IMG/VR virus record: IMGVR_UViG_3300022752_004372 | Span: 1-20,984 of that record | Length of the DNA stretch: 20,984 nt | Reading direction: 5' to 3' (one strand) | From: a virus | In this document: positions 3-17,715 of the stretch, piece by piece | Layout of the letters: each line of letters opens with the position of its first letter | Position numbering within the stretch: the first letter of the stretch is position 1 | Notes under the pieces: model-generated | Database searches by the model: none | What the model was told of the DNA's origin: nothing | What the model saw: the letters and a program-made list of their open reading frames with translations, nothing else | Made by a program: the position numbers and the translations under genes

Positions 3-2510
3 AGCACAAATGCTTATGATGCTCATGTTGCTGCTGGTAATAAGAACCCTTTTAAGGTTATTCTGCCAACACAAGCGGTTCCATCTTTTACCGTGCGTGA
101 TTATGGTACGGGTCTTAGTCAGCAGGACATGGAGGAACTGTATACCACTTATGGGGCAAGCAACAAGAATGATAGTAATGATTTTGTTGGTTGTCTTGGA
201 TTAGGTAGTAAGAGTCCATTTGCTTATACCAAGAGTTTTAGCACAGTATCTTATTATAACGGAACTAAGTATTCTTATATTGCGGCTATGGACGAGAACG
301 GTGTTCCTAGTCTTAATCTGTTTGATATTAGTCCAACTAAAGAACCTAACGGTCTTGAAATTAGTTTCGCCGTTAAGCAGTGTGATTTTAGCGAGTTTAC
401 TACCAAAGCAAAAAGAATTTTCCATTACTTCAAGATGAAGCCCATTATTGAGGGTGGTTTTGGGGAGAATCTGTCCGATCATTCGTACTCTTATACCAAT
501 TTTGTTATTGATGGTAAGGGCTGGAGGATTGGTAGACTATCGAATAATAATGATCAATATCCTTCAGCGTACAACAATGCTGATAGTGGTATTATTGCTA
601 TCATGGGTAATATTGCTTATCCTGTTGATAGTTCAAAGATTATTGGAGAAGCAGAAAAAGACGTTTCCAATGATGCTATCCAGAAATGGAATCGTACCTT
701 CAAAAAGGTTGATGTGGATAATTGGAAGAATCTAGTCAAGGAGGTTCTAGGATCCGGTTTGTATCTTGAAATCAATTTTGATATTGGCGAATTGGAAATG
801 GATGTGAGTCGTGAAGGTTTACAGTATACAAAGAATGTTCTTAAAGTTTTGCGTGAAAGAACTCAGGATATTTATCTTCAACTCAAAGAAGATATGACCC
901 AAAAGATTACTCAGTGTACTAATCTGGTAGATGCTTATCAGACTTATTATAATTTGAGCGATCTTGCTGGTGGATGGACCGCTGGTGCATCATGGACCGA
1001 TCAGTCTGGAAAGACTCATGAATTAACTAGTGGTAAAGATCTTGAATACAAGTTCAAGAAAAATAAGCAGTTGTATGTTTTTAATTTTAGAACAGCCGGA
1101 TATCGCTCTCGTCGTATGGTTTATCTAACAGATAAAATTCATAATGAAACACTCAAGGGAGTTCCTCAATACTATTGGAGCGGAACTAAAAAGAGTGGTA
1201 AAATGATCTTTTTCCGCTGCGATATTAAGGGTGCTGAAACCGCCAAAAAGATTGTGACAAAATATTGCAATCAAAATGATTGTTTTGCATATCTGATGGT
1301 GGATAGTGATAATCCAGAAGATTCTACAGAGGGTTTTGATGATATCATTAGTGATATCGGTGGAGAAACCAATATAGTTAATGTTTCCGATTATCGTAGT
1401 CTACTTAGTAAGGGGCCACGCAAGAGCAGTGTTTCTTTTGGTAAGATTAGTGCTGGCGAGGTTTTTATTATTAGTGATTGTCCAGATGCTAATGATAAGC
1501 TAGTATTATCTGGTAATGGAATAAATGATTCTGATCTTTTAAGAGAAGTAGACGAAGATACTTACGAAAGTATCGAAGATCAAGATGAGACGATTTATAT
1601 TCCTATTATTAGGTATGCTTCGGCGGAAGGATTTCCATCTATCGCTTATCTTAATAAAATTATCAAAGATAAAAATCATACTCTTCACAATCTATTGAAG
1701 GACAAGAATATTCTTGCTATCAAGCAGAGTGCTGTTAGTAAGATCAAAGATTTGAATCTTATTGATTTCAATGCTTGGATCAAGCCTCAATTAAAGAGCA
1801 TGATGAGTAAACTTTGCGGAGAAGTTAGTTCGTATAAAAATATTGTAGACTACTGTACTGAACAGTATAATACAGAAGAAAAGAATGAGTCGTATGGTTA
1901 TTACAGAATTCGTACAGATAGGCATATAGCGGTTACTATTCTAGGCATTTTTGGTATTGATTATCATAAGTATATTAGTGGATCAGAACTTTGTAATCTG
2001 GTCGATCAATGGATGATCCATTACTTTTTTGCTCATGTTATTCATAATAGTTTTGATATGAAGTTTTGTAAGAAGTCAGAATACTTTGCTGTTATGACAA
2101 AAATATTAGCAAAACATAATATGAATGGTATTGATCCTGAGAAGATTCGTAAACAAACTCAAGAGTTTAATATCTTAAAGAGCGAGATCAATACTATGTA
2201 TAGTGAAGATTATACATCTAAGATAGTATCAATTTCTCAAGAATCCAAAGATTTTTGTGAGTCGATAACGAAAAGTTCTGATCTTAGAAAAAAGTTTAAA
2301 GCGGAAGTTGACAAGGTGCCGATGCTCAAGTATATTGTGAGTAGTGCGTTGGAAATAAACGGTTCTGATGCTGGATTGAACGGAATAGGTTCCTCTAATC
2401 CACTTAAAATAAGTCATAATCGTTACTATAGTCCACCAGCATGGTTTTTAACTATTGATGAAAACGGTATTGAACAGTTACGAAATAGTCTAGGTGTTTT
2501 GATCAAATAA
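3..2510 (+). CDS. rIIA: rIIA-like protein, GHKL-type ATPase (5' partial)
   Basis: The reading frame is open to the left window edge, so the true start lies upstream; 835 residues are visible. The visible N-terminus carries the GHKL (Hsp90/MutL/histidine kinase) ATP-binding signature: an N-box-like NAYDAH at visible residues 3-8, the G1 box DYGTGL at 33-38 and a G2-like GLGSKSP at about 66-72. T4 rIIA (725 aa) has this type of N-terminus and is membrane-associated. In T4 the rII pair affects lysis timing and growth in lambda lysogens; the biochemistry is not settled. An rIIB-like gene follows after 25 nt, the T4 order, which strongly supports the call. The long C-terminal part has no motif I recognise. 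The only other reading I would consider is a generic GHKL ATPase. Confidence 0.88.
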   Translation, partial: STNAYDAHVAAGNKNPFKVILPTQAVPSFTVRDYGTGLSQQDMEELYTTYGASNKNDSNDFVGCLGLGSKSPFAYTKSFSTVSYYNGTKYSYIAAMDENGVPSLNLFDISPTKEPNGLEISFAVKQCDFSEFTTKAKRIFHYFKMKPIIEGGFGENLSDHSYSYTNFVIDGKGWRIGRLSNNNDQYPSAYNNADSGIIAIMGNIAYPVDSSKIIGEAEKDVSNDAIQKWNRTFKKVDVDNWKNLVKEVLGSGLYLEINFDIGELEMDVSREGLQYTKNVLKVLRERTQDIYLQLKEDMTQKITQCTNLVDAYQTYYNLSDLAGGWTAGASWTDQSGKTHELTSGKDLEYKFKKNKQLYVFNFRTAGYRSRRMVYLTDKIHNETLKGVPQYYWSGTKKSGKMIFFRCDIKGAETAKKIVTKYCNQNDCFAYLMVDSDNPEDSTEGFDDIISDIGGETNIVNVSDYRSLLSKGPRKSSVSFGKISAGEVFIISDCPDANDKLVLSGNGINDSDLLREVDEDTYESIEDQDETIYIPIIRYASAEGFPSIAYLNKIIKDKNHTLHNLLKDKNILAIKQSAVSKIKDLNLIDFNAWIKPQLKSMMSKLCGEVSSYKNIVDYCTEQYNTEEKNESYGYYRIRTDRHIAVTILGIFGIDYHKYISGSELCNLVDQWMIHYFFAHVIHNSFDMKFCKKSEYFAVMTKILAKHNMNGIDPEKIRKQTQEFNILKSEINTMYSEDYTSKIVSISQESKDFCESITKSSDLRKKFKAEVDKVPMLKYIVSSALEINGSDAGLNGIGSSNPLKISHNRYYSPPAWFLTIDENGIEQLRNSLGVLIK

Positions 2511-2535
2511 ATTTCACAGGAAAAGGAGAATTAAA

Positions 2536-3387
2536 ATGAGCGTTCCATTTATGTGGGTTGATGGTAATTTGACGTTGATCTTGAATAATAAGGCTTATCA
2601 AGTTATTCCTGATCATATTAATTACAAGTTGATTCTTGAGGCTCTACCAACAGCAACCAATGATGAGTTGCTAGATCTGGTAGACATCGAAAAGGCAGTA
2701 TCATCGTTTAGCGATGGTCTGGTTGAGGTCAAGAACGGCAAGGTGCTATTTGATGGTGAAGAAGTTCATGGTAGCATTAGTAAGCGTATTCTAGAGTTTA
2801 TGAGCAAGGGATTACCGTTTCAGCCTCTTGTAAACTTCTTGAATAATCTTATGGAAAATCCCAGTATGCAGAGTCAAAAGGAACTGTATGATTTCTTGGA
2901 ACATGAACATCTACCAATTACTGAGGATGGTCATTTTCTAGCATACAAGGCTGTTCGTAACGATTATATGGATAAGTATGCTGGTACATTTGACAATCAT
3001 GTTGGACAAGTTTGCCAAATGAATAGGGCTAAGGTTGATGACAATCGTAATGTTGGTTGCTCTCAGGGACTTCATGCTGGTGCTTTGAACTATGTTGCTA
3101 ATTATGGTAGTGCTGATAACGGTGATCATATTATGATTGTTAAGATCAATCCAAAAGATGTGGTCAGCGTTCCTAGTGATTGTAATCATGAGAAACTTCG
3201 TACTTGTAGATATGAAGTTGTTGGTGAATATCAAGGTGAACTACTAAAACCTCTTTACAAGGCTGAGTTTAGTGAAGACTCTTATGATGACGATGAAGAG
3301 CAGTTATATGATGAGTATGATGATGATTACTGGAATCAGTACGAAGATGAAGATGAAGATTATGATCCTGATCAGGATTATGTTTGA
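2536..3387 (+). CDS. rIIB: rIIB-like protein
   Basis: A 283-residue protein directly downstream of the rIIA-like gene. The start is fixed by a strong ribosome binding site (AAGGAG about 9 nt before the ATG at 2536). The central region has the pattern of phage rIIB proteins: FLAYKAV near 135-141, a YAGT.DN segment, VDDNRNVGCSQGLHAG near 167-182, then VKINPKDVVSVPSD. T4 rIIB acts with rIIA in lysis control and exclusion phenotypes; its molecular role is uncertain. The last 40 or so residues are very acidic (runs of D and E with Y), a tail I do not associate with T4 rIIB. No signal peptide or membrane span is seen. The two genes probably share one transcript. Confidence 0.87.
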   Translation: MSVPFMWVDGNLTLILNNKAYQVIPDHINYKLILEALPTATNDELLDLVDIEKAVSSFSDGLVEVKNGKVLFDGEEVHGSISKRILEFMSKGLPFQPLVNFLNNLMENPSMQSQKELYDFLEHEHLPITEDGHFLAYKAVRNDYMDKYAGTFDNHVGQVCQMNRAKVDDNRNVGCSQGLHAGALNYVANYGSADNGDHIMIVKINPKDVVSVPSDCNHEKLRTCRYEVVGEYQGELLKPLYKAEFSEDSYDDDEEQLYDEYDDDYWNQYEDEDEDYDPDQDYV

Positions 3388-5588: not shown

Positions 5589-6005
5589 ATGAGCAAACAA
5601 AACTATATTATAGATGATTTAGAAGAATTTACAAGGTCAGCAAGAAAACTTGTATTCAATGGCTTTGATAAAAGCATAGGAGATGATCCTGACGAATTTA
5701 CCAAACTTATTACAGAAATTAGTAAGGAGGACATGAAGGAAATGGATCAAATTTTAACCCAACAAGAATCACTAGTAATAGTCAAGGGTTTGGCTAAAGA
5801 ACAAAAACATAAAATCACAAATGAGTCAAGATACTTAATTGATGAAAAAATATTTTCACAAATTATAGAAGAAATGAATGGACGCTTAGTCAGTAATATG
5901 TTAACTTCATTAGCGAGTAAAGGATTAATAGAATCTGCTTATGATGAACAAATTAATGATTTTGTCTTTTGGATAAAAGATGATGAAAATCGTGAAACCG
6001 ATTGA
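5589..6005 (+). CDS. Hypothetical acidic helical protein
   Basis: A 138-residue protein. The start is supported by CGGAG about 7 nt before the ATG at 5589. It is acidic and predicted largely helical. The C-terminal half (about 85-135) has a pattern like a small winged-helix: helices containing IFSQIIEEMNGRLVSNMLTSLASKGLIES, then a strand-like DFVFWIKD. That arrangement is typical of phage proteins that repeat a 'helix - short loop - K/RGLIE' unit, but the match is only visual. Its 3' end overlaps the next gene by 26 nt, so the two are probably co-translated. No function is claimed. Confidence 0.62.
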   Translation: MSKQNYIIDDLEEFTRSARKLVFNGFDKSIGDDPDEFTKLITEISKEDMKEMDQILTQQESLVIVKGLAKEQKHKITNESRYLIDEKIFSQIIEEMNGRLVSNMLTSLASKGLIESAYDEQINDFVFWIKDDENRETD

Positions 6006-6405
6006 AATTGATGCTTCTTTTTTATATAGATGTCCATCTGAAATCTGCGGCATTACTCATTGGTTGTATCTAAGAGAAGTAAAAACAAAAAATTTTAAAG
6101 TTGTTTGTTATTGTGGAACAGTATTTAAGCCAAAAACTATAACTGATATAGACATAAATTATACAGACAAACCACAAATAGCGGACCCATCGAAAGATAA
6201 TAACGCCTCAATAGATGGTAATAAATCAAATATAAGTATTCCGATTGACCTTTTGGAGAAGTGTGTTACAATACTGGTTCAGTACGGATTTAAAGCGCAA
6301 GAAGCAAAAGATATACTGTGTAAAACATATATATCTAATCAGATAGATGATGCTATAAAACTTATTGAGATATCATTAAAATCATTGGAGATAAAAAATG
6401 TCTAA
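5980..6405 (+). CDS. Zinc-ribbon-like protein with RuvA domain III-like C-terminus
   Basis: A 141-residue protein overlapping the previous gene by 26 nt and the RuvB-like gene by 8 nt. The N-terminal part has paired cysteines, C18-x4-C23 and C43-x-C45 with H27 between, consistent with a small zinc-binding ribbon. A polar linker (about 56-86) leads to residues 88-137. There the pattern LLEKCVTILVQYGFKAQEAKD, then a helix ending in IKLIEISLKSLE, resembles the three-helix domain III of RuvA, the part that contacts RuvB. RuvA domains I and II, which bind Holliday junctions, are absent. The direct overlap with a RuvB gene supports a RuvB-loading or targeting adaptor. UBA-like three-helix domains look similar, so context carries much of the call. 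Confidence 0.55.
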   Translation: MMKIVKPIEIDASFLYRCPSEICGITHWLYLREVKTKNFKVVCYCGTVFKPKTITDIDINYTDKPQIADPSKDNNASIDGNKSNISIPIDLLEKCVTILVQYGFKAQEAKDILCKTYISNQIDDAIKLIEISLKSLEIKNV

Positions 6406-7297
6406 AGGTATAAGGCCAACTAAATTTAGCGAAATTCTTGGACAAGATGATGTGATTAACAGACTAAAAGTCAGCGTGACGGGCTGTTTAAAAACATCAA
6501 CCGTGATGCCACACACTTTAATAGATGGGCCACCGGGACTTGGTAAAACTACCATAGCGAGTGCTATCGCCAACGAATTGAATGTGAATCTGTACACAAC
6601 CAACGCGGCAAATCTCAGAAGTGTTAAGAATATTATTCCATACCTTATGGGAATTGCTCCACGATCAGTTCTATTTATTGATGAAATTCATAGATTACCC
6701 AAACTTGTTGAAGAATTTTTATATCCTGTAATGGAAGATTTTGTATTAACTATTACTCTAGAGAAAAAACCAGAAACTATTGATCTTCCAGCTTTTACTT
6801 TGGTAGGAGCAACAACTAGTGGTGGTAGTTTAAGTCAACCGTTCTATGATAGATTCAGTATCAAAGAACATCTTAGTTTTTATAATGATACTGATTTAGC
6901 TAAACTAGCAAGATCGAACTGCGATAAACTATCTATTTCTATTGATGAAAGTGATCTTGTTGAGATTGCTAAAAGAAGCAAAGGAACTCCTAGAATTTTG
7001 AACTCTAGATTACAATGGTATAAAAATTACAAGACCTGTCATCCAAATTCTACAGAGTCTATAGATGAGATTTTCTCTATTCAGGGTATCGATCAAGATG
7101 GATTAGATGCTTACGATAGAACGTATTTGAATTTACTAGCAAGTAATAAAGGTAATCCATTAGGCTTAAAAGCGATATCTTCTCTTACTGGTATTGCTGT
7201 AGAAACTATTGAAAATAGTATAGAGCCGTATTTAGTTAGAAAAAAGTTTATATCACGAACCCAAAAGGGCAGAGTGATAGGAAACTATACTAAATAA
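6398..7297 (+). CDS. ruvB: RuvB-like Holliday-junction branch-migration AAA+ ATPase
   Basis: A 299-residue protein with the full RuvB layout (E. coli RuvB is 336). The N-terminal RP..F.EILGQ leads to Walker A GPPGLGKT at 44-51 and Walker B VLFIDE at 91-96. The RuvB-specific EEFLYPVMEDF follows at 105-115, then sensor 1 GATT at 137-140 and DRF at 151-153 with the likely arginine finger. Sensor 2 GTPR is at 196-199, and a C-terminal winged helix ends in EPYLVRKKFISRTQKGRV. All ATPase residues appear intact. The hairpin between MEDF and FTLVGATT is about four residues shorter than in E. coli; RuvA docks in this part of RuvB. GGAG precedes the ATG, which overlaps the upstream adaptor-like gene. 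RuvB hexamers drive branch migration; the phage role here is inferred. It is the last gene before a terminator. Confidence 0.9.
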   Translation: MSKGIRPTKFSEILGQDDVINRLKVSVTGCLKTSTVMPHTLIDGPPGLGKTTIASAIANELNVNLYTTNAANLRSVKNIIPYLMGIAPRSVLFIDEIHRLPKLVEEFLYPVMEDFVLTITLEKKPETIDLPAFTLVGATTSGGSLSQPFYDRFSIKEHLSFYNDTDLAKLARSNCDKLSISIDESDLVEIAKRSKGTPRILNSRLQWYKNYKTCHPNSTESIDEIFSIQGIDQDGLDAYDRTYLNLLASNKGNPLGLKAISSLTGIAVETIENSIEPYLVRKKFISRTQKGRVIGNYTK

Positions 7298-7367: not shown

Positions 7368-7383
7368 TATAATAGTGTATAAT
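7368..7383 (+). promoter_or_regulatory. Candidate promoter with two TATAAT boxes and no clear -35
   Basis: TATAAT occurs at 7368-7373 and again at 7378-7383, just after the terminator and 22 to 37 nt before the DUF1501 start. No TTGACA-like hexamer lies at the usual 16-18 nt spacing; the terminator stem occupies that place. This fits a -35-independent promoter, such as one read by a T4 gp55-like sigma, but AT-rich DNA makes chance matches easy. Confidence 0.45.
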
Positions 7384-7404
7384 ATAACCAGAAAAGGATA
7401 TTTT

Positions 7405-8679
7405 ATGTTTAATAGAAGAAGCTTTATAAATACGGGCGTTTTAGGATATTTAGGATTAAATCTTGGAGACTACCTCAAATTAAGAGCAGAAGAACCTTCT
7501 GTTAAAAAAGCGAAGGCACAGTCAGTGATTTATATTTATCTGCCGGGTGGGTATGCTCATCAAGAAACATTTGACCCAAAACCGAATAGTCCGATTGATT
7601 ATAGGGGTCCTTTAAATAGTATATCCACAAGTATTCCAGGAATATTTTTTAGTCAATATCTGACAGAAACTGCAAAAATAGCAAATAAAATTAGTATTAT
7701 CAGATCAATGACTCATAGTGAAACAGCACATGAGCGTGGAACTAATAATATGTTTACTGGATATCGTCCTAGTCCAGCCATTCAGTATCCAAGTTTGGGA
7801 TCAGTAGTCAGTCAACAATTAGGAGTCAGGAATAATTTACCTCCATATATAACAGTACCTAATGTACCTAACGAATTTGCTGGTGCTGGATATCTTAGTC
7901 ATAGTTATTCATCATTTAGTCTTGGTGGAAATCCAGAAGATCCAAACTTTAAAGTTAGAGATTTAACACTGCCAGATGGAATATCTATAAATAGATTTGA
8001 CAAAAGAAAAGCAATGCTAGAAATAGTCAACAAAGAGTTCAATGTTAGTCAAAAGTCCGACTCTTTAGATTCTATGAATTCTTTTTATCAAAATGCTTAT
8101 GATATTATGAATTCGTCTCAGGCCATACAAGCATTTGATCTTAATAAAGAAGATGATAATACTAAAGAAATCTACGGAAAAACTGCTGCGGGAATGAGAC
8201 TCTTACTAAGTAGAAGATTAGTAGAAGCAGGAGTCAGATTTGTTAGCGTAAGTTATGGTGGATGGGATCATCATGATAATATAGCATCAAATATGAATAC
8301 TCAGTTACCATCTTTTGATAAAGCTTTTTCTGCACTAATAAATGATCTAGACCAAAAAGGATTACTAGATTCAACACTAGTGTGTGTTGCCACAGAATTT
8401 GGTCGTACACCTAAGATAAATCCCACCGCTGGACGCGACCATTGGCCGCGTGTTTTTTCTATAGTCATGGCAGGAGGCGGAATTAAAAAGGGTCTGGTGC
8501 ATGGCTCCAGCAACGACACAGCGAGTGAACCGCAGGACGATCCAATGAGTGTAGAGGACTGGGGCGCTACTCTATATCATCTGCTAGGAATTGATCATAC
8601 TAAACATTTAATAGCTCCAGGAAATAGACCAGTTAAAATTATTGATAATGGCCACATTATAGATAGTCTTATTGCATGA
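7405..8679 (+). CDS. DUF1501 family protein with twin-arginine-like N-terminus
   Basis: A 424-residue protein. The ATG at 7405 is preferred because AAGGA lies 6 nt upstream and it places NRRSF at residues 3-7, a typical planctomycete DUF1501 Tat-like start; an in-frame GTG at 7375 has neither. The hydrophobic stretch after the arginine pair is short and the Tat signal is only probable. Family hallmarks are FDPKP near 53, GGWDHH at 285-290, ATEFGRTP at 329-336 and GRDHWP at 343-348. The H and D residues resemble metal ligands of the alkaline-phosphatase/sulfatase fold to which DUF1501 is related. The enzymatic reaction is unknown. The family is abundant in Planctomycetes and would be unusual in a phage, so host gene capture is likely. 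The next gene begins immediately after the stop. Confidence 0.88.
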   Translation: MFNRRSFINTGVLGYLGLNLGDYLKLRAEEPSVKKAKAQSVIYIYLPGGYAHQETFDPKPNSPIDYRGPLNSISTSIPGIFFSQYLTETAKIANKISIIRSMTHSETAHERGTNNMFTGYRPSPAIQYPSLGSVVSQQLGVRNNLPPYITVPNVPNEFAGAGYLSHSYSSFSLGGNPEDPNFKVRDLTLPDGISINRFDKRKAMLEIVNKEFNVSQKSDSLDSMNSFYQNAYDIMNSSQAIQAFDLNKEDDNTKEIYGKTAAGMRLLLSRRLVEAGVRFVSVSYGGWDHHDNIASNMNTQLPSFDKAFSALINDLDQKGLLDSTLVCVATEFGRTPKINPTAGRDHWPRVFSIVMAGGGIKKGLVHGSSNDTASEPQDDPMSVEDWGATLYHLLGIDHTKHLIAPGNRPVKIIDNGHIIDSLIA

Positions 8680-8992: not shown

Positions 8993-9994
8993 ATGAGTTG
9001 TGGATTAGATGTTGGTACAAGTTATATAGTCTTGTCAAAACAAACAGTCAGCGGAATATCATATACTGATTTTCGTGATGCTTTTTATATCATTAGACCA
9101 ACAACTCCAGTTGCTATTAAAATGATAGAAAAGGGTTTGCAAGGCAAAACATTTATTAAAGATTCTGATAATTCATTTATTCTTCTAGGCAAAGATGCAA
9201 TAGAAAAAGCTATAGAAAGAAATGATAGTGCTAAAAGACCAATGTATAAGGGTGTAGTATCATCAAAAGAAAAAGAAGCAAAAAAAGTATTGGCTTTTAT
9301 ATTAAAAGAAGTAGTCGGCAAAGCATCGGAGCCAAGTGAAAAACTAATTTTTTGTAGACCAGCACAACCGGTAGATCAGCAAGATGATGATTTTGATGTT
9401 GGTTATCACGAAGATATTGTAAAAAGTATATTAGCAGAACAAGGTTATGATGCTAAGGCAATAAATGAAGCCGAAGCACTATGTTATGCTGGACTAGAAG
9501 ATAGTGACTATACTGGTATAGGAGTTAGTTGTGGTGCAGGAATGACCAATGTTTGTGTTATGTTAAATGGCGAACCAACAGTTACTTTTAGCACCACAAA
9601 GTCTGGGGACTGGATAGATCGTATGGTTGCTGTAGCACTAGGAGAACCAGACAGTGTTGTACAAGCAGAAAAAGAGCAAGGATCTTATACTATAGGACAA
9701 CCTAATGAAAATCCAATATTAGAAGCAGTATGTTCTTACTATGATAGGTTAATAGATTATACAACAAAATATTTGAGTGTAGCATTAAGTAATCATAAAT
9801 CATTACCAAAGTTCAAAGAACCATTAAAAATAGTTGTTGCTGGAGGAACATCTCTGGCACAAGGATATGTTCAAACATTTAAGAATAAATTAATACAAAA
9901 TAATTTTCCGCTACCGATAAAAGAAGTTGTTCATGCAGACGATCCTCTTCATGCTGTTGCAAAAGGGTGCTTAATAGCTGCACAAATATTATGA
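8993..9994 (+). CDS. Actin/MreB/Hsp70-fold ATPase (phage actin-like protein)
   Basis: A 333-residue protein with a good ribosome binding site (GGGAG about 9 nt before ATG). Three signatures of the actin-like ATPase fold are visible. Phosphate 1 is GLDVGTSYIVLS at 4-15. Phosphate 2 is GIGVSCGAGMTNV at 175-187, with NEAEAL just before it as in MreB-like connect regions. The adenosine motif is VVAGGTSLAQGY at about 281-292. The length matches MreB and ParM. Such proteins form filaments used in plasmid partition, cell shape or phage positioning. The gene lies between a single-span membrane protein and a secreted protease whose start overlaps its stop by 4 nt (ATGA). Whether it polymerises cannot be told from sequence. 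An Hsp70-like chaperone without a substrate domain is the alternative. Confidence 0.8.
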   Translation: MSCGLDVGTSYIVLSKQTVSGISYTDFRDAFYIIRPTTPVAIKMIEKGLQGKTFIKDSDNSFILLGKDAIEKAIERNDSAKRPMYKGVVSSKEKEAKKVLAFILKEVVGKASEPSEKLIFCRPAQPVDQQDDDFDVGYHEDIVKSILAEQGYDAKAINEAEALCYAGLEDSDYTGIGVSCGAGMTNVCVMLNGEPTVTFSTTKSGDWIDRMVAVALGEPDSVVQAEKEQGSYTIGQPNENPILEAVCSYYDRLIDYTTKYLSVALSNHKSLPKFKEPLKIVVAGGTSLAQGYVQTFKNKLIQNNFPLPIKEVVHADDPLHAVAKGCLIAAQIL

Positions 9995-10755
9995 CTAAAT
10001 TAATTAAACTATTAACATTAGCAATAATATTAACTACTAATACCTTTGCTGGCACTATAGATCCAGATGTAAAAGATAAACAATATTTAGATCATGCAAA
10101 AAATTTTCCTTATGTTGTATTATTAGTTGGTATTACAAAAAAAGATATTAAATATTCAGGATCAGCTGTTGCATATAAAGATAATATTATTCTAACTGCT
10201 GCTCATTTATTTGAGGATAGTAAAACTTCATCAGTATTAGTTGGTAATAAATTGATTCCTATTAAAAAAATAGTATCTCATCAAAAATATAAACATGATA
10301 TATTTGGTAAATATGATATAGCTATATGTTTACTATCTGATGCGATGAAATTAGAAAAATATCCAGAACTTTATGAAAAAGATGATGAATTAGGGAAATT
10401 TTGTGAGTTATCTGGATACGGTGCAACTGGTAATTTTTTACATGGAGTTAATAGTCCTGGTGGATTTCAAAGGGCAGGATCCAATACTATTGATGGTACT
10501 AATGATTTTTTATTGTTTTGTTCACCTTCCGTTAAGCATAATAAAACATTATTAGAATTTATTATAGCAGCTGGAGATAGCGGTGGAGGATTATTTATCG
10601 ATAATAAATTAGCCGGTATACATTCTGCTGTGATAGAAGATAAGCCAAATAGACATAAATCTAAGTACGGGACAGTCAGTACACATACTCGCATAAGTAA
10701 ATATAGAGATTGGATAAACAGCGAAATCATAAAATTAGAGGAGATAAATAAATAA
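9991..10755 (+). CDS. Secreted trypsin-like (S1 family) serine protease
   Basis: A 254-residue protein. The start at 9991 overlaps the previous stop as ATGA and gives a clean signal peptide: K4 and K7 near the start, hydrophobic LLTLAIILTTNTFA, with likely cleavage after A20. The triad is complete: H72 in LTAAH, D109 in KYDIAI, and S197 in GDSGGG (195-200). The spacing fits the chymotrypsin fold. It should act outside the cytoplasmic membrane, possibly on envelope proteins. Few cysteines are present, so disulfides are limited. With the subtilisin-like gene 2 nt downstream it forms a protease pair. Trypsin-like secreted proteases are rare in phages; lysis, wall modification or processing of phage surface proteins are all possible roles. 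Confidence 0.85.
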   Translation: MTKLIKLLTLAIILTTNTFAGTIDPDVKDKQYLDHAKNFPYVVLLVGITKKDIKYSGSAVAYKDNIILTAAHLFEDSKTSSVLVGNKLIPIKKIVSHQKYKHDIFGKYDIAICLLSDAMKLEKYPELYEKDDELGKFCELSGYGATGNFLHGVNSPGGFQRAGSNTIDGTNDFLLFCSPSVKHNKTLLEFIIAAGDSGGGLFIDNKLAGIHSAVIEDKPNRHKSKYGTVSTHTRISKYRDWINSEIIKLEEINK

Positions 10756-10757
10756 CT

Positions 10758-11693
10758 ATGTTTAATTTTTTAAAATTCAAAAGGAAAAATGAATGCGGAC
10801 TCTTGCCTCATACAAGAGAAAATTTGCACGGTATTTATGGATCAATGCAATTTTATCCATGGCCAATTAAAATGTTTGATGTTGAAAAATGTTGGAATAA
10901 AACCATGGGAGAAAAAGTTGTTGTTGCAGTTCTTGATACGGGATGCGATGTGACACATGAGGATCTAAAAGACAATATTGTTGCAGGTAAAAATATAGTC
11001 GATAATAATAACAATGTTATGGATGAAAATGGTCACGGAACTCATGTTGCTGGCACAATAGGTGCAGCAAATAATATTCTAGGCGTTGTCGGTGTTGCTC
11101 CTAAAGTTAAAATTATGCCTGTTAAAGTATTAGGTGAAAACGGTATGGGATCGAATACCGATGTCGCTAAGGGTATAATATGGGCCTGTGACCACGGCGC
11201 AGATATTATTACTATGTCACTAGGTTCGGAAAATCCATCTAAACAAATAGAAGATGCTCTAAAATATGCTAATACTAAAAAAGTAGTAGTATTTTGTGCT
11301 GCTGGAAATTCTGGTAATGAATCCGATATAAATTATCCAGCTAAATATCCACAAACTATTAGTATAGGGGCTATAGATAAAGATCTTAAAATATGTGATT
11401 TTAGCTGTACTGGAGATAGTCTCGACTTTGTGGCACCCGGTCAGGATATCCCAAGTTCCATTCCAAATAATTCTTATGCAGTTATGAGTGGTACGAGTAT
11501 GGCGACCCCATACGCTGTTGGTTGCGCTGCGTTACTATTGTCTTCCCATAGGAGGTATGACAATAAAAATATCCTATCTAAAGATGATTTTATTAAATTG
11601 TTTAGTCAACAGGCTATAAGATTAAAACAACCAGAATATGCAGGAAATAAAAGATATGAGGGTAATGGTATAATACGTCCAGTAGTTATATAA
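10758..11693 (+). CDS. Subtilisin-like (S8 family) serine protease
   Basis: A 311-residue protein starting 2 nt after the trypsin-like gene. The triad is complete: D60 in VLDTG, H93 in NGHGTHVAGT, and S247 in SGTSMATP, with the oxyanion asparagine N184 in AAGNSGNE. There is no signal peptide and only about 45 residues precede the catalytic domain, too few for a usual secreted-subtilisin prodomain. The N-terminal layout (LLPHTRENLHGIYG..., then an IK..D.EKCW segment) recalls intracellular subtilisins of Bacillus, which carry a short inhibitory N-terminal extension. It may therefore act in the cytoplasm or after lysis. The substrate is unknown. Processing of phage proteins or degradation of host proteins are options. 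Confidence 0.88.
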   Translation: MFNFLKFKRKNECGLLPHTRENLHGIYGSMQFYPWPIKMFDVEKCWNKTMGEKVVVAVLDTGCDVTHEDLKDNIVAGKNIVDNNNNVMDENGHGTHVAGTIGAANNILGVVGVAPKVKIMPVKVLGENGMGSNTDVAKGIIWACDHGADIITMSLGSENPSKQIEDALKYANTKKVVVFCAAGNSGNESDINYPAKYPQTISIGAIDKDLKICDFSCTGDSLDFVAPGQDIPSSIPNNSYAVMSGTSMATPYAVGCAALLLSSHRRYDNKNILSKDDFIKLFSQQAIRLKQPEYAGNKRYEGNGIIRPVVI

Positions 11694-13674: not shown

Positions 13675-14802
13675 ATGAAAATTATAGATGGAATCAAATT
13701 AGATTTTGATGATGTTTTAATTAGACCCAAAAGATCTTCATTGGGTAGTAGATCGGAAGTTTCTTTGATTAGAAAATTTATTTTTCCACAATCTTCTAGA
13801 TCAATAGAATGTATTCCAATAATAGCTGCCAATATGGACACAACAGGAACTTTCAAAATGGCAGAAGTACTTGGTGATTCAAAGTGTCTAACGTGTTTAC
13901 ATAAGCACTATTCACCGGATAAACTTATTAATTTCTTTTCTTTACCAATATCCAAATATGCATTTTATTCAACAGGAATATCTATAAAAGATATAGAAAA
14001 ATTAGATTATATCTTTTTACAGCTTCATAATAAGGGATATGAATATCCAAATATCTGTATAGATGTGGCTAATGGCTATAGTGAATTATTCGTAAATACT
14101 GTTAAAGAAATAAGAGAAAAATATCCTTCGACTATTATTATGGCTGGTAATATAGTTACGCCCGAGATGACAGAAGAACTATTAATTCATGGAAGAGTTG
14201 ATATAGTCAAGGTAGGTATAGGCCCAGGCAGCGTTTGTACAACAAGACTTAAAACCGGCATCGGATACCCCCAACTATCTGCTGTAATGGAGTGTGCAGA
14301 CGCCGCTCATGGTCTACAAGGACACATTTGTGCTGACGGAGGATGTAAAACACCGGCAGATGTTTGTAAGGCTTTTGGCGGAAATGCAGACTTTACGATG
14401 TTAGGAGGAATTTTTGCTGGAACCGATTGTTGTGACGGAGAATGGGAATACGAATATCGTTGCGCCATTATTAATAACGACAGAGAAGTAGTTAGAGAAT
14501 GGTGGCAACCAAATGATCCTGGCTATCATCCACCAGAAAAAAGAAAAAAATCTTTAAAATTTTATGGTATGAGTAGTAAAGAGGCTATGAATAAACATAA
14601 TGGAGGAGTTGCCGATTACAGAACCAGCGAGGGTAAGTGCGTTACAATTCCGTATAAAGGAGAAACTACTCATATATTACAGGATATCTTGGGTGGTCTA
14701 AGAAGTGCATGTACATATATTGGAGCACAATCTATAAAAGACTTTAGCAAAAAAACTATTTTTATTAGAGTAAACCAAACACACAATAAGGTATTTCAAT
14801 GA
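13675..14802 (+). CDS. guaC: GMP reductase (GuaC-like, IMPDH/GMPR family)
   Basis: A 375-residue protein that aligns by eye along nearly its whole length with GuaC (E. coli 347 aa). Visible motifs are LDFDDVLIRPKRS at 9-21 and GPGSVCTTR at 183-191 with catalytic C188. Then come TGIGYPQLSAVMEC at 194-207, ADGGCKTPADVCKAFG at 220-235, FYGMSS at 296-301, YRTSEGK near 315-321 and GGLRSACTY. No CBS domains are inserted, and the MSS..A...H.GG block points to GMP reductase rather than IMP dehydrogenase. The reaction is GMP + NADPH to IMP + NH3 + NADP+. Between residues about 255 and 294, where GuaC has a short loop, there are about 20 extra residues rich in W, E and P. It ends in an ATGA overlap with the glycosyltransferase gene. 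Confidence 0.9.
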   Translation: MKIIDGIKLDFDDVLIRPKRSSLGSRSEVSLIRKFIFPQSSRSIECIPIIAANMDTTGTFKMAEVLGDSKCLTCLHKHYSPDKLINFFSLPISKYAFYSTGISIKDIEKLDYIFLQLHNKGYEYPNICIDVANGYSELFVNTVKEIREKYPSTIIMAGNIVTPEMTEELLIHGRVDIVKVGIGPGSVCTTRLKTGIGYPQLSAVMECADAAHGLQGHICADGGCKTPADVCKAFGGNADFTMLGGIFAGTDCCDGEWEYEYRCAIINNDREVVREWWQPNDPGYHPPEKRKKSLKFYGMSSKEAMNKHNGGVADYRTSEGKCVTIPYKGETTHILQDILGGLRSACTYIGAQSIKDFSKKTIFIRVNQTHNKVFQ

Positions 14803-15869
14803 ATAATATTAATTTCATATCACCACTAGGTATGACAGGATATGGTATTGCCGCCCATAATATACTAAAAGAATTATCTTATATGTATAATATTACTTAT
14901 TTTCCTATTGGACAACCACACATAGATAATCCTAAAGATGTAAAGTTAGTACAAGATTGTATCAATAGACAAGAAACTTTCGATTATGATGCCCCATGCT
15001 TTAAAATATGGCACCAATTTGATCTTGGGTTGAGAGCCGGCAGGGGTAAATTTATAGCGTATCCCTTTTTTGAGTTAGATACATTTACAACAAAAGAAAA
15101 ACACCACCTACATCATCCGGATCATTTAGTTGTATCAAGTAAATGGGCAAAAGAAATATTAATAAATAACAATATTACTAAACCAATTACTATAGCTCCT
15201 CTTGGTGTTGATAGAAATATTTTTAATCACTCGATGAGTGAAACAGTAGATAGAACAAATCTCCCATATATATTTATTAATGTTGGTAAATGGGAAATTA
15301 GAAAAGGACATGAAATATTAATAGAAATGTTTAATAGTGCTTTTTCTGAAACAGATAATGTTGAACTATGGCTTGTAACAGAAAACCCATTCTTGAATAA
15401 AGAACAAAATATGTTTTGGGCAGAATTGGTAAAAAATAGTAAATTACAATCCAAAATAAGACTCTTTCCAAGAATTGATACTCACGATAGATTAGCAGAA
15501 GTAATGTCATATGCAGATTGTGGTATTTTTCCATCAAGAGCAGAAGGATGGAATTTGGAATTATTAGAAATGATGAGTCTTGGTAAACCAGTTATAACCA
15601 CAAATTATGCTAGTCATACTGAATTTTGTACAAAAGATAATGCCTATTTAGTCGATATTACAGAAAAAGAAGAAGCTTACGATGGCAAATGGTTTAATGG
15701 AGAAGGTAATTGGGCTAAAATTGATCAATCTCATAAAGATCAATTTATAGAATATATGAAATATGTCTATACTAATAAAATTAATACCAATAAAATAGGT
15801 ATAGAAACAGCTGAAAAATATAACTGGAAAAATACCGCTAATTGCATATCAGCAGCAATAGAGGCATGA
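14799..15869 (+). CDS. GT4-family glycosyltransferase
   Basis: A 356-residue protein starting with an ATGA overlap on the GMP reductase gene. It shows the two-domain GT-B layout. The N-terminal domain opens with NFISPLGMTGYG, where GxG-type loops contact the acceptor, and contains DHLVVSSKWAKEIL. The C-terminal domain starts at VGKWEIRKGHEILIEMF (about 167-183). It carries the GT4 signature FPSRAEGWNLELLEMMSLGKPVI near 246-268, with E252 and E257 in the usual E-x-x-x-x-x-E region, followed by ITTNYASHTEF. GT4 enzymes transfer a sugar from an activated nucleotide donor with retention. In phages they modify DNA, proteins or surface glycans; this one's acceptor is unknown. No signal peptide is seen. 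Confidence 0.85.
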   Translation: MNNINFISPLGMTGYGIAAHNILKELSYMYNITYFPIGQPHIDNPKDVKLVQDCINRQETFDYDAPCFKIWHQFDLGLRAGRGKFIAYPFFELDTFTTKEKHHLHHPDHLVVSSKWAKEILINNNITKPITIAPLGVDRNIFNHSMSETVDRTNLPYIFINVGKWEIRKGHEILIEMFNSAFSETDNVELWLVTENPFLNKEQNMFWAELVKNSKLQSKIRLFPRIDTHDRLAEVMSYADCGIFPSRAEGWNLELLEMMSLGKPVITTNYASHTEFCTKDNAYLVDITEKEEAYDGKWFNGEGNWAKIDQSHKDQFIEYMKYVYTNKINTNKIGIETAEKYNWKNTANCISAAIEA

Positions 15870-15886
15870 TATTATATTGGTGTATA

Positions 15887-15895
15887 TATAAAATA
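15887..15895 (+). promoter_or_regulatory. Candidate T4 late-type TATA box
   Basis: TATAAAATA lies 31 nt before the ATG of the first probable virion-associated gene, in the only gap of this region. T4 late promoters use TATAAATA with no -35, read by gp55; a gp55-like sigma gene lies at 18705. There is one additional A compared with the T4 box and the surrounding DNA is AT-rich, so this is a suggestion only. Confidence 0.3.
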
Positions 15896-15925
15896 TCTTT
15901 TTAAATTTTAACAAGGATACTATTT

Positions 15926-16474
15926 ATGCCACTACCTAAACGAAGCCCAAAAGAAGATAAACAAAAATTTGTTTCTAGATGTATGGGCGATGAGACTATG
16001 AAAAAGGACTTTCCAAAGACTAGTCAAAGAATAGCCGTGTGCTTATCCCAAACACGAACAAAAGATAAAGCAAATTTAATAGAAGAAGTTCACGATCAAT
16101 TATTTGCTAATAATTATATGTGGAATGATGAATGGGACGAATTTGTGTGGGATATAGAGATTGATCAGGTGGTGGATGAATATGAAGAAGATAGATTGGT
16201 TAGCTCTAAAAAAGATAAAAAAAATGTTACACTAAATAAACCATTTAGAACACCAGATGGTCCAAAAAAATTTAGTGTTTATGTTAAGAATGAAAAAGGG
16301 AATGTTATTAAAGTAAATTTTGGCGACCCAAATATGGAAATCAAAAGAGACGATCCAGAAAGACGTAAGTCTTATAGGGCTAGACATCATTGTGAAGACC
16401 CCGGTCCTAGATGGAAAGCTAATTATTGGTCTTGCAAAATGTGGTCCACACCCAATGTTTCAGATTTAACATAA
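15926..16474 (+). CDS. Phage conserved protein, probably virion-associated (two small conserved domains)
   Basis: A 182-residue protein with an AAGGA ribosome binding site. The N-terminal 45 residues (FVSRCMGDETMKKDFP...QRIAVCLSQ) match a short module that recurs at the ends of phage head and portal-region proteins. An acidic linker (65-90) is followed by a C-terminal domain at about 105-176: TPDGPKKFSVYVKNEKGNVIKV, FGDPNMEIKRDDPERRKSYRARHHC and WKANYWSCKMW. That combination is familiar from prohead-protease-region proteins of T4-like and pelagic phages. The conserved C and H residues (C21, C41, H157-H158, C159, C171) may bind metal. The precise role is unknown; structural or assembly is inferred from family context. 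Confidence 0.65.
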   Translation: MPLPKRSPKEDKQKFVSRCMGDETMKKDFPKTSQRIAVCLSQTRTKDKANLIEEVHDQLFANNYMWNDEWDEFVWDIEIDQVVDEYEEDRLVSSKKDKKNVTLNKPFRTPDGPKKFSVYVKNEKGNVIKVNFGDPNMEIKRDDPERRKSYRARHHCEDPGPRWKANYWSCKMWSTPNVSDLT

Positions 16475-16487
16475 ATGGAGATCAATT

Positions 16488-17021
16488 ATGCAAAAATCAA
16501 TTCAAGATCTATTAACTGAACAAAATAAAGTTGCCCAAGCACAACAGGTTGAAGGTTATAGTTCGGCACAAGTAATCGATCTTCTTAAGAAGTCACTAAA
16601 TATTCACTGGCAACAAACAACAGTATTAAGTGCTCAAGCTGTTCATCTTGAAAGATGGGGATATAAAAAATTAGCTTCTGTTATTAAAGAGGATGCGTTA
16701 CAAGAGCATGAACACGCTATGATTAATTTATCAAGATTAGAATTTTTTGATCAAGATTACCAACCATTAACAGTAGCTCCACCATCATGGACTAGACACG
16801 ATATGTTAGCATTAATTAAGTATAATCTTGATTCAGTTAGAGAAGCATCTGCTGCCGAAAGAGCCACTATTATGGCCGCTAGAGCAGTTGGAGATGAGAT
16901 TACAGCAAATATTATGCTTCCTCTGTTACAGGGAAGCGAAGACGGTATTACATTATATGAAAGCTATTTGAAGCTAATTGACGAAATGGGTCTAGATAAT
17001 TTCTTAACACTACAAGTTTAA
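16488..17021 (+). CDS. Ferritin/bacterioferritin-like four-helix protein with an incomplete diiron site
   Basis: A 177-residue all-helical protein with GGAG 8 nt before the ATG. Its helices follow the bacterioferritin spacing: ERWGYKKLASVIKEDALQEHEHA at 55-77 corresponds to 'NWGLKRL...HESIDEMKHA', and RLEFFD to 'RILFLEG'. The ExxH of helix B is kept (E73, H76). Other expected ligands look replaced: helix A has no clear Glu at the E18 position, and helix D reads SEDGI at 150-154 where EEGH would be. Iron oxidation is therefore doubtful, though the fold seems secure. It may be a structural or DNA-protecting member, or an unusual ferritin. Neighbours are virion-associated-looking genes, so a packaged protein is possible. 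Confidence 0.6.
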   Translation: MQKSIQDLLTEQNKVAQAQQVEGYSSAQVIDLLKKSLNIHWQQTTVLSAQAVHLERWGYKKLASVIKEDALQEHEHAMINLSRLEFFDQDYQPLTVAPPSWTRHDMLALIKYNLDSVREASAAERATIMAARAVGDEITANIMLPLLQGSEDGITLYESYLKLIDEMGLDNFLTLQV

Positions 17022-17022
17022 A

Positions 17023-17715
17023 ATGCGATCATATAAAAATATTCTTAATTCTGTTGAAAATCAACTGGATAAAAATGCTCGAATAGATCGTATTAAATAC
17101 GATAATAAAATAGTTTTAGAAGATATTAAAGTACCAAAAAAATATCAATATATTGATTGGAAAAATTTAATACCTCCGCCATATAAAAATAGTAGTAAAA
17201 CCACACTACTAGAGATTGAGGAAATTGCTCTATTAACACACAACAGAACAAAAGAAGACGAAAAATTAATCTATTTAGTTGATAAAGAACCGCTAGACTT
17301 ATTTTATCCGATTCTTGAAAAACATAACATTACTTTTCCTAAAAAAATATTTGATCTTATTTATAAAGATGTTAGTCAATTAATTATAGCAGTAAAAAAT
17401 TACTATAATAGACCACGACCAAAACAATTAGCGGATATATATAATATATCAATTAATGTTTTAGTAACATCAACCCATCACACACCATCATATCCGTCCG
17501 GTCATACGGCCTATTCTGCTTTAGCATACCATTTGATCAAAACAGTGTATCGTAGTAATATACCAAATGAAATATATAGTTGTGTTGAATTAACTGGTAG
17601 AGCAAGAAAACTACAAGGTATTCATTATCAATCTGATATAGATGCTGGACTGCTATTTATTAACAAACTATTTAATACATATATTAAACCAAATATAGGA
17701 GATTATTATGATTAA
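17023..17715 (+). CDS. PAP2-superfamily acid phosphatase
   Basis: A 230-residue protein carrying all three phosphatase motifs: K125-x6-R132-P133, PSGH at 158-161 with H161, and R195-x5-H201-x3-D205. The histidine of motif three is the expected nucleophile and H161 the acid. There is no signal peptide and no set of membrane spans, so it looks like a soluble PAP2 enzyme, similar to those seen in T4-like cyanophages, rather than a lipid phosphatase in the membrane. Its substrate is unknown: phosphomonoesters, lipids or nucleotides are possible. It starts 1 nt after the previous stop and overlaps the next gene by 8 nt. Confidence 0.85.
   Translation: MRSYKNILNSVENQLDKNARIDRIKYDNKIVLEDIKVPKKYQYIDWKNLIPPPYKNSSKTTLLEIEEIALLTHNRTKEDEKLIYLVDKEPLDLFYPILEKHNITFPKKIFDLIYKDVSQLIIAVKNYYNRPRPKQLADIYNISINVLVTSTHHTPSYPSGHTAYSALAYHLIKTVYRSNIPNEIYSCVELTGRARKLQGIHYQSDIDAGLLFINKLFNTYIKPNIGDYYD

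Follow-up and report, generated by a model that had tools for sequence, protein, structure and literature searches.

RuvB is textbook machinery and is described as the partner of RuvA at Holliday junctions. In the RuvAB structure, RuvB holds domain III of RuvA by its helix alpha3 and its presensor-1 hairpin; the arginine finger of RuvB is on alpha5, and its acidic signature is on alpha4 (PMC9477746). Residues L167 and L170 of Escherichia coli RuvA are required for RuvB activity (PMC2628435), and R297, R300, and R302 of Thermus thermophilus RuvB are DNA-binding residues (PMC10272136). Among the 224 jumbo phages of a published survey, RuvC was found but no RuvB-like ATPase (PMC7824862).

The phage family considered here, which consists of uncultured large phages, encodes its own RuvB and, directly upstream in most members, a small adaptor protein. 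No description of this adaptor-RuvB pair was found in the open-licence papers that were searched. RuvB matches in three GenBank phage records were examined and set aside; these records are unverified and have a RuvA-like gene directly upstream, in the bacterial ruvAB order, and therefore look like host DNA. We consider the pair to be a phage-encoded DNA motor of the RuvAB type with a reduced adaptor in the place of RuvA, at a probability of roughly 0.7.

Organization of the locus

The window, meaning the whole stretch of DNA that was analyzed, is an IMG/VR virus record of 20,984 bases. Both open reading frames were confirmed where the original prediction had placed them (5980-6405, 141 aa, and 6398-7297, 299 aa), as was their 8-nt overlap, which results from the ATG of the RuvB gene sitting inside the 3' end of the adaptor gene. 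The start of the adaptor gene is in turn overlapped, by 26 nt, by a 138-aa upstream ORF, the third member of the adaptor/RuvB cluster. The features are as follows.

5589..6005, plus strand: conserved upstream ORF, 138 aa, no function assigned (ORF; conserved in relatives)
5980..6405, plus strand: adaptor gene, 141 aa, predicted zinc ribbon, linker, and RuvA-domain-III-like three-helix bundle (ORF; 41-member family; AlphaFold2 pLDDT 82; PDB profile and fold matches)
5983..6150, plus strand: zinc ribbon, adaptor residues 2-57, basic, pI 9.0 (C18, C23, C43, C45, and W28 invariant; weak fold match)
6151..6240, plus strand: flexible acidic linker, adaptor residues 58-87, low confidence at 67-83 (AlphaFold2 model and family alignment)
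6241..6396, plus strand: predicted RuvA-domain-III-like bundle, adaptor residues 88-139 (VIA-align; PDB profile; TIGR00084 in three relatives)
6398..7297, plus strand: RuvB gene, 299 aa, AAA+ large domain, lid, and winged-helix domain (Pfam; PDB; fold model)
6398..6405, plus strand: overlap of adaptor and RuvB genes, 8 nt (sequence)
6623..6649, plus strand: RuvB residues 76-84, forming helix alpha3, one of the two docking elements (relaxed sites 76 and 84; PMC9477746)
6743..6784, plus strand: RuvB presensor-1 beta-hairpin, residues 116-129 (relaxed sites 119 and 121; model strands)
7097..7282, plus strand: RuvB winged-helix domain (PF05491 match; conservation; PMC10272136)

The phage encodes a complete RuvB

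The 299-aa protein contains the three RuvB domains in the right order, each over the Pfam cut-off (PF05496 RuvB_N, 1.3e-45; PF17864 AAA_lid_4, 1.7e-8; PF05491 RuvB_C, 9.2e-20), and matched E. coli RuvB at 6.5e-61 in a PDB sequence search. Its AlphaFold2 model (pLDDT 88.7) matched 19 RuvB entries in the PDB with Z scores of 24 to 33.5, the latter for E. coli RuvB, and clamp loaders and other AAA+ proteins came next with Z scores of about 17. The protein is a complete RuvB. The original prediction that it keeps all of the ATPase motifs was confirmed: the Walker A and Walker B motifs, both sensors (sensor 1 and sensor 2, the latter R199), and the arginine finger (R152, which corresponds to E. coli R174) were invariant across 47 RuvB homologs. 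The arginine hairpin of the winged-helix domain, R287-K290-R292, corresponds in the alignment to R297-R300-R302, the DNA-binding residues of T. thermophilus RuvB; R287 and R292 are invariant in the homologs, and K290, which replaces the middle arginine, is nearly so.

The presensor-1 hairpin is present in the model as strands 116-121 and 124-129. The original prediction that it is about four residues shorter than usual was correct as a measurement (14 residues versus 18 in E. coli, L135-L152), but the importance attached to the shortness was not upheld: one clade of relatives has a longer insert at this position, and because hairpin length varies among relatives a shorter hairpin is not diagnostic of the family.

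A different identity was raised by phrog_168, the phage clamp loader family, for which the sole match in 15 relatives was RuvB itself, even though these phages encode the alpha subunit of DNA polymerase III (Pol III alpha). The RuvB-like protein would then be a phage clamp loader and the adaptor its small subunit, together replacing T4 gp44/gp62. However, domain content and fold speak strongly against a clamp-loader identity, since the protein has full RuvB anatomy, including the winged-helix domain, and its model scores 24 to 33 against RuvB versus about 17 against clamp loaders. Furthermore, no bacterial beta clamp was found in 11 long relatives, a clamp and its loader can come from the host, and the RuvB sites that relax when the adaptor is missing (see below) lie at the RuvA docking site. 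The search for a T4 clamp (PF02916) matched nowhere, positive controls included, and is uninformative by itself. We regard a clamp-loader pair as highly improbable.

The adaptor combines a predicted RuvA-domain-III-like bundle with a zinc ribbon

Single-sequence scans of Pfam and PHROG with the adaptor returned nothing useful, and a single-sequence tblastn search against GenBank phages gave no match. Relatives of the adaptor were gathered from viral contigs, and 41 were aligned. C18, C23, W28, C43, and C45 are invariant in these homologs, as is G103. The AlphaFold2 model (pLDDT 82) consists of a confident N-terminal ribbon, a disordered linker (residues 67-83), and three helices (89-101, 106-120, and 125-139). 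According to the alignment and the model, residues 1-57 form a four-cysteine zinc ribbon in the place where RuvA has its junction-binding core, and the zinc-ribbon-like start that had been noted in the sequence is borne out by the four invariant cysteines, the invariant tryptophan, and the confidence of the predicted ribbon. In fold comparison, the ribbon resembled ribosomal ribbons of the S27e type weakly (Z, 2.2-2.6), and its pI is about 9 throughout the adaptor family.

Independent profile and fold routes lead to the same assignment for the C terminus. When the 41-member profile was compared with all PDB sequences, the best match was domain III of RuvA (1ixs_A, E value of 4.8e-4; 1ixr_A, 0.0039). 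In a Foldseek search of 350,542 PDB chains with the adaptor model, ranks 1 to 11 were all RuvA (probability, 0.82-1.00), with E values no better than 0.1 to 1 because the domain is about 50 residues long. The top 12 PDB entries found by VIA-align were likewise all RuvA (Z, 6.3-8.0), and the next unrelated entry scored 5.4. RuvA_C was the Pfam family matched by the most adaptor members (5/41), and ruvA was the NCBIfam family matched by the most (11/41). The individual sequence matches between the adaptor and RuvA are weak (E values of 1e-4 to 1e-2) but concordant. L99 and Y102 of the adaptor align with L167 and L170 of E. coli RuvA, and the family keeps leucine or methionine at the first position and mostly tyrosine at the second. 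Judged from sequence profiles and a predicted fold, the C terminus of the adaptor is a RuvA-domain-III-like bundle, in accordance with the earlier reading of residues 88-137; neither type of search placed these residues in an unrelated family.

The same topology occurs in UBA domains, and the three-helix bundle could be regarded as a generic UBA-like domain that is linked to RuvB by an accident of operon structure. UBA entries do appear in the fold list, but at Z scores of 5.0 and below, under the RuvA entries; the profiles pick RuvA among all PDB chains and all Pfam and NCBIfam families, with no UBA family among the 25 Pfam families most often matched by adaptor members; and the relaxation described below is specific to the docking site. 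We consider a generic domain with an accidental link to RuvB very improbable.

TIGR00084 (ruvA) was searched through 11 long related phage records and matched the C terminus of the adaptor only, in three records, with the alignment limited to model positions 132-201. No RuvA core (domains I and II) was found in the 11 records by this search, which, together with the zinc ribbon at residues 1-57, upholds the claim that the protein has no junction-binding RuvA core. Because this defining core is missing, the adaptor is not a RuvA.

The adaptor gene accompanies RuvB in related phages

The family includes 104 distinct RuvB proteins whose start could be read, and 88 of these are immediately preceded by the adaptor. 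Conversely, 70 adaptor loci were looked at, three of which stop at a contig edge, and RuvB follows the adaptor at all 67 of the loci with room downstream. The co-occurrence anticipated for related phages was therefore confirmed, far above chance. The remaining 16 RuvBs lack the adaptor, which counts to that extent against a fixed pair, and it follows that RuvB can do without the adaptor in some of the phages; as shown below, the same 16 strengthen the case for docking. In these 16 cases RuvB is adjoined by the conserved 138-aa ORF that otherwise lies upstream of the adaptor. The adaptor was not found elsewhere in eight adaptor-less records, including records of 154, 187, and 200 kb. On the RuvB tree, the presence or absence of the adaptor switches 11 times, at least 4 of these on strongly supported branches.

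The docking surface of RuvB relaxes when the adaptor is missing

Since the published structure assigns the arginine finger to alpha5 and the acidic signature to alpha4, helix 76-84 of the phage RuvB is alpha3. In order to compare RuvBs with and without an adaptor, sites at which at least 95% of adaptor-bearing RuvBs have Ile, Leu, Val, Met, Phe, Tyr, or Trp were collected (90 hydrophobic sites), and a site was considered relaxed if it fell below 90% hydrophobic in the 16 adaptor-less RuvBs. Only 4 of the 90 sites relaxed, of which two (76 and 84) lie in alpha3 and two (119 and 121) in the presensor-1 hairpin. When 16 adaptor-bearing RuvBs were drawn at random 2,000 times, no draw reached as many relaxed sites.

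The per-cell rate of loss in adaptor-less RuvBs was 8.3% at the interface versus 0.75% elsewhere. In adaptor-bearing RuvBs, the corresponding rates were 0.9% and 1.0% (Fisher P of 2e-6, with related sequences treated as independent and with interface ranges set around the published elements after the four sites had been seen). Loss was concentrated at the interface and not elsewhere, and general fast evolution is therefore not the explanation. When kinship was allowed for on the best tree, intactness was lower than in the nearest adaptor-bearing relative for 7 of the 11 adaptor-less lineages and higher for none (P = 0.016); the strongly supported branches alone provide four independent pairs, too few for a sign test. 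RuvB I128, which aligns with I150 of E. coli RuvB, is conserved with and without the adaptor, and the hairpin is therefore not wholly released in adaptor-less RuvBs.

Relaxation of the RuvA-domain-III docking surface when the adaptor is gone argues, from sequence comparison, for selection for adaptor binding at the RuvB hairpin, and the suggestion that the adaptor docks through this hairpin is supported by the behavior of sites 76, 84, 119, and 121. The adaptor and RuvB very probably form a working adaptor-motor complex, and we hold their pairing and docking with high confidence.

A bare domain III without a junction core might also compete with RuvA for the RuvB of the host, in which case the adaptor would be a decoy that blocks host RuvAB. 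However, the adaptor gene is locked to the phage RuvB, and it is the docking surface of the phage's own RuvB that relaxes in the absence of the adaptor. It seems very unlikely that the adaptor is directed against the host protein.

The adaptor gene also evolves faster than its neighbor. Between the window and relative L012, dN was 0.21 for the adaptor versus 0.012 for RuvB, and dS was 0.75 versus 0.26. DNA identity to L012 and similar relatives was 64 to 83% over the adaptor (window 5898-6397) and returned to 94 to 98% at the start of RuvB. Faster evolution of the adaptor would suit a targeting module with a changing partner; recombination at the adaptor locus is an alternative because dS is also higher there.

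Neighboring genes

The interval between RuvB and volactin is variable cargo among relatives. Volactin, a family of actin homologs (PF25216, 1e-60), is encoded at window 8993-9994 and lies downstream of RuvB in many relatives; in GenBank phages, matches to it were confined to two huge uncultured phages. A DUF1501 protein (8e-112) with an N terminus resembling a twin-arginine signal is encoded at window 7375-8679. Planctomycetes and their relatives commonly have DUF1501 proteins with twin-arginine-like signals, which hints at a host in Planctomycetes or a related group. Proteases of the trypsin-like and subtilisin-like types lie in tandem at window 9967-11693 and are found downstream of RuvB in relatives as well; the N terminus of the first is signal-like. 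Genes for IMP dehydrogenase, a glycosyltransferase, a ferritin-like protein, and a PAP2 phosphatase are located at window 13675-17715. rIIA- and rIIB-like genes adjoin each other at window 93-3387, in a family whose relatives have no detected family B polymerase. In G001, the closest long relative, a LAGLIDADG ORF interrupts the Pol III alpha gene (L110:13600-16593), and two ORFs share the NTPase domain; Pol III alpha is likewise in two pieces in relative G008.

Possible function of the motor

In the proposed mechanism, the adaptor bundle would dock on RuvB at its alpha3 helix and its presensor-1 hairpin, as sequence, predicted structure, and evolution suggest. By analogy with RuvA domain III, the bundle would tether RuvB and stimulate its ATPase activity and nucleotide exchange (PMC9477746), and the RuvB ring would pump double-stranded DNA. 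The basic zinc ribbon on its flexible linker may serve as the anchor, in place of the junction-binding core of RuvA, gripping either DNA or a protein of phage replication or recombination; we infer that targeting of the motor could thus be the task of the ribbon.

The replication and recombination genes of related phages bear on where such a motor might work. Pol III alpha is present in all 15 relatives of 112 to 238 kb, an Endonuclease VII-family nuclease is present in 11 of them, and a terminase-like ORF, backed by tblastn matches to Bacillus phage terminases, is present in 9. G001 encodes a DnaB-type helicase, RecA, SSB, and PhoH in addition to Pol III alpha. RuvC was not detected over the cut-off in 11 long relatives, nor family B polymerase in 9 relatives; these absences, like that of the beta clamp, are provisional because the records may be incomplete. 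The motor might act in branch migration or fork remodeling during recombination-linked phage DNA replication, a role suggested because RecA and an Endonuclease VII-type nuclease occur in the same phages and RuvC is absent. The odds for branch migration appear to be about even.

Alternatively, the adaptor may dock on RuvB as proposed while its ribbon steers the motor to a replisome, packaging, or transcription protein, so that duplex DNA would be moved away from junctions. The lack of both the RuvA core and RuvC in the 11 long relatives and the presence of the phages' own Pol III alpha in 15/15 relatives are in keeping with a target of this kind, and zinc ribbons are frequent in transcription and replication proteins. 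On the other hand, RecA and Endonuclease VII-type nucleases in the same phages fit recombination, and the partner of the ribbon is still only putative. Taken further, RuvB might be a duplex DNA motor of general use that interchangeable adaptors of the domain III type direct to its target, with the zinc-ribbon adaptor recruiting it to a nonjunction site (replisome, packaging, or transcription) and with some relatives running RuvB adaptor-free. Both the nonjunction target and this broader scheme are tentative and less probable than not.

Implications and comparison with known systems

These phages form a widespread family that encodes its own RuvB together with a stand-alone domain-III-like module joined to a different, putative targeting domain, and in which repeated natural absences of the adaptor mark the docking surface of RuvB. 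The phage appears to have rewired the steering of the RuvB motor. The system makes it possible to ask whether domain III alone is enough for the RuvB cycle, whether RuvB works away from junctions, and how RuvB operates without any adaptor, and it offers a small two-protein motor for biochemistry.

Compared with the phage clamp loader gp44/gp62 (phrog_168), the phage RuvB is an AAA+ ATPase of a related clade, but it has the lid and winged-helix domains of RuvB and a fold much nearer to RuvB, and no sliding clamp was detected. The adaptor shares with RuvA (TIGR00084; RuvA_C, PF07499) the predicted C-terminal fold and a weak but specific sequence match, whereas it covers just the last 50 to 70 or so of the 202 model positions of TIGR00084 and the DNA-binding core is missing. 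Unlike bacterial RuvAB (E. coli, T. thermophilus, and Salmonella typhimurium RuvA with Streptococcus thermophilus RuvB), the pair is phage encoded, RuvC was not found with it, and the adaptor is without the junction-binding tetramer core formed by RuvA domains I (OB fold) and II (helix-hairpin-helix), with a basic four-cysteine zinc ribbon in the place of the core. It has in common with bacterial RuvAB a complete RuvB, a domain-III-like docking module preceded by a flexible linker, and matching docking surfaces on RuvB.
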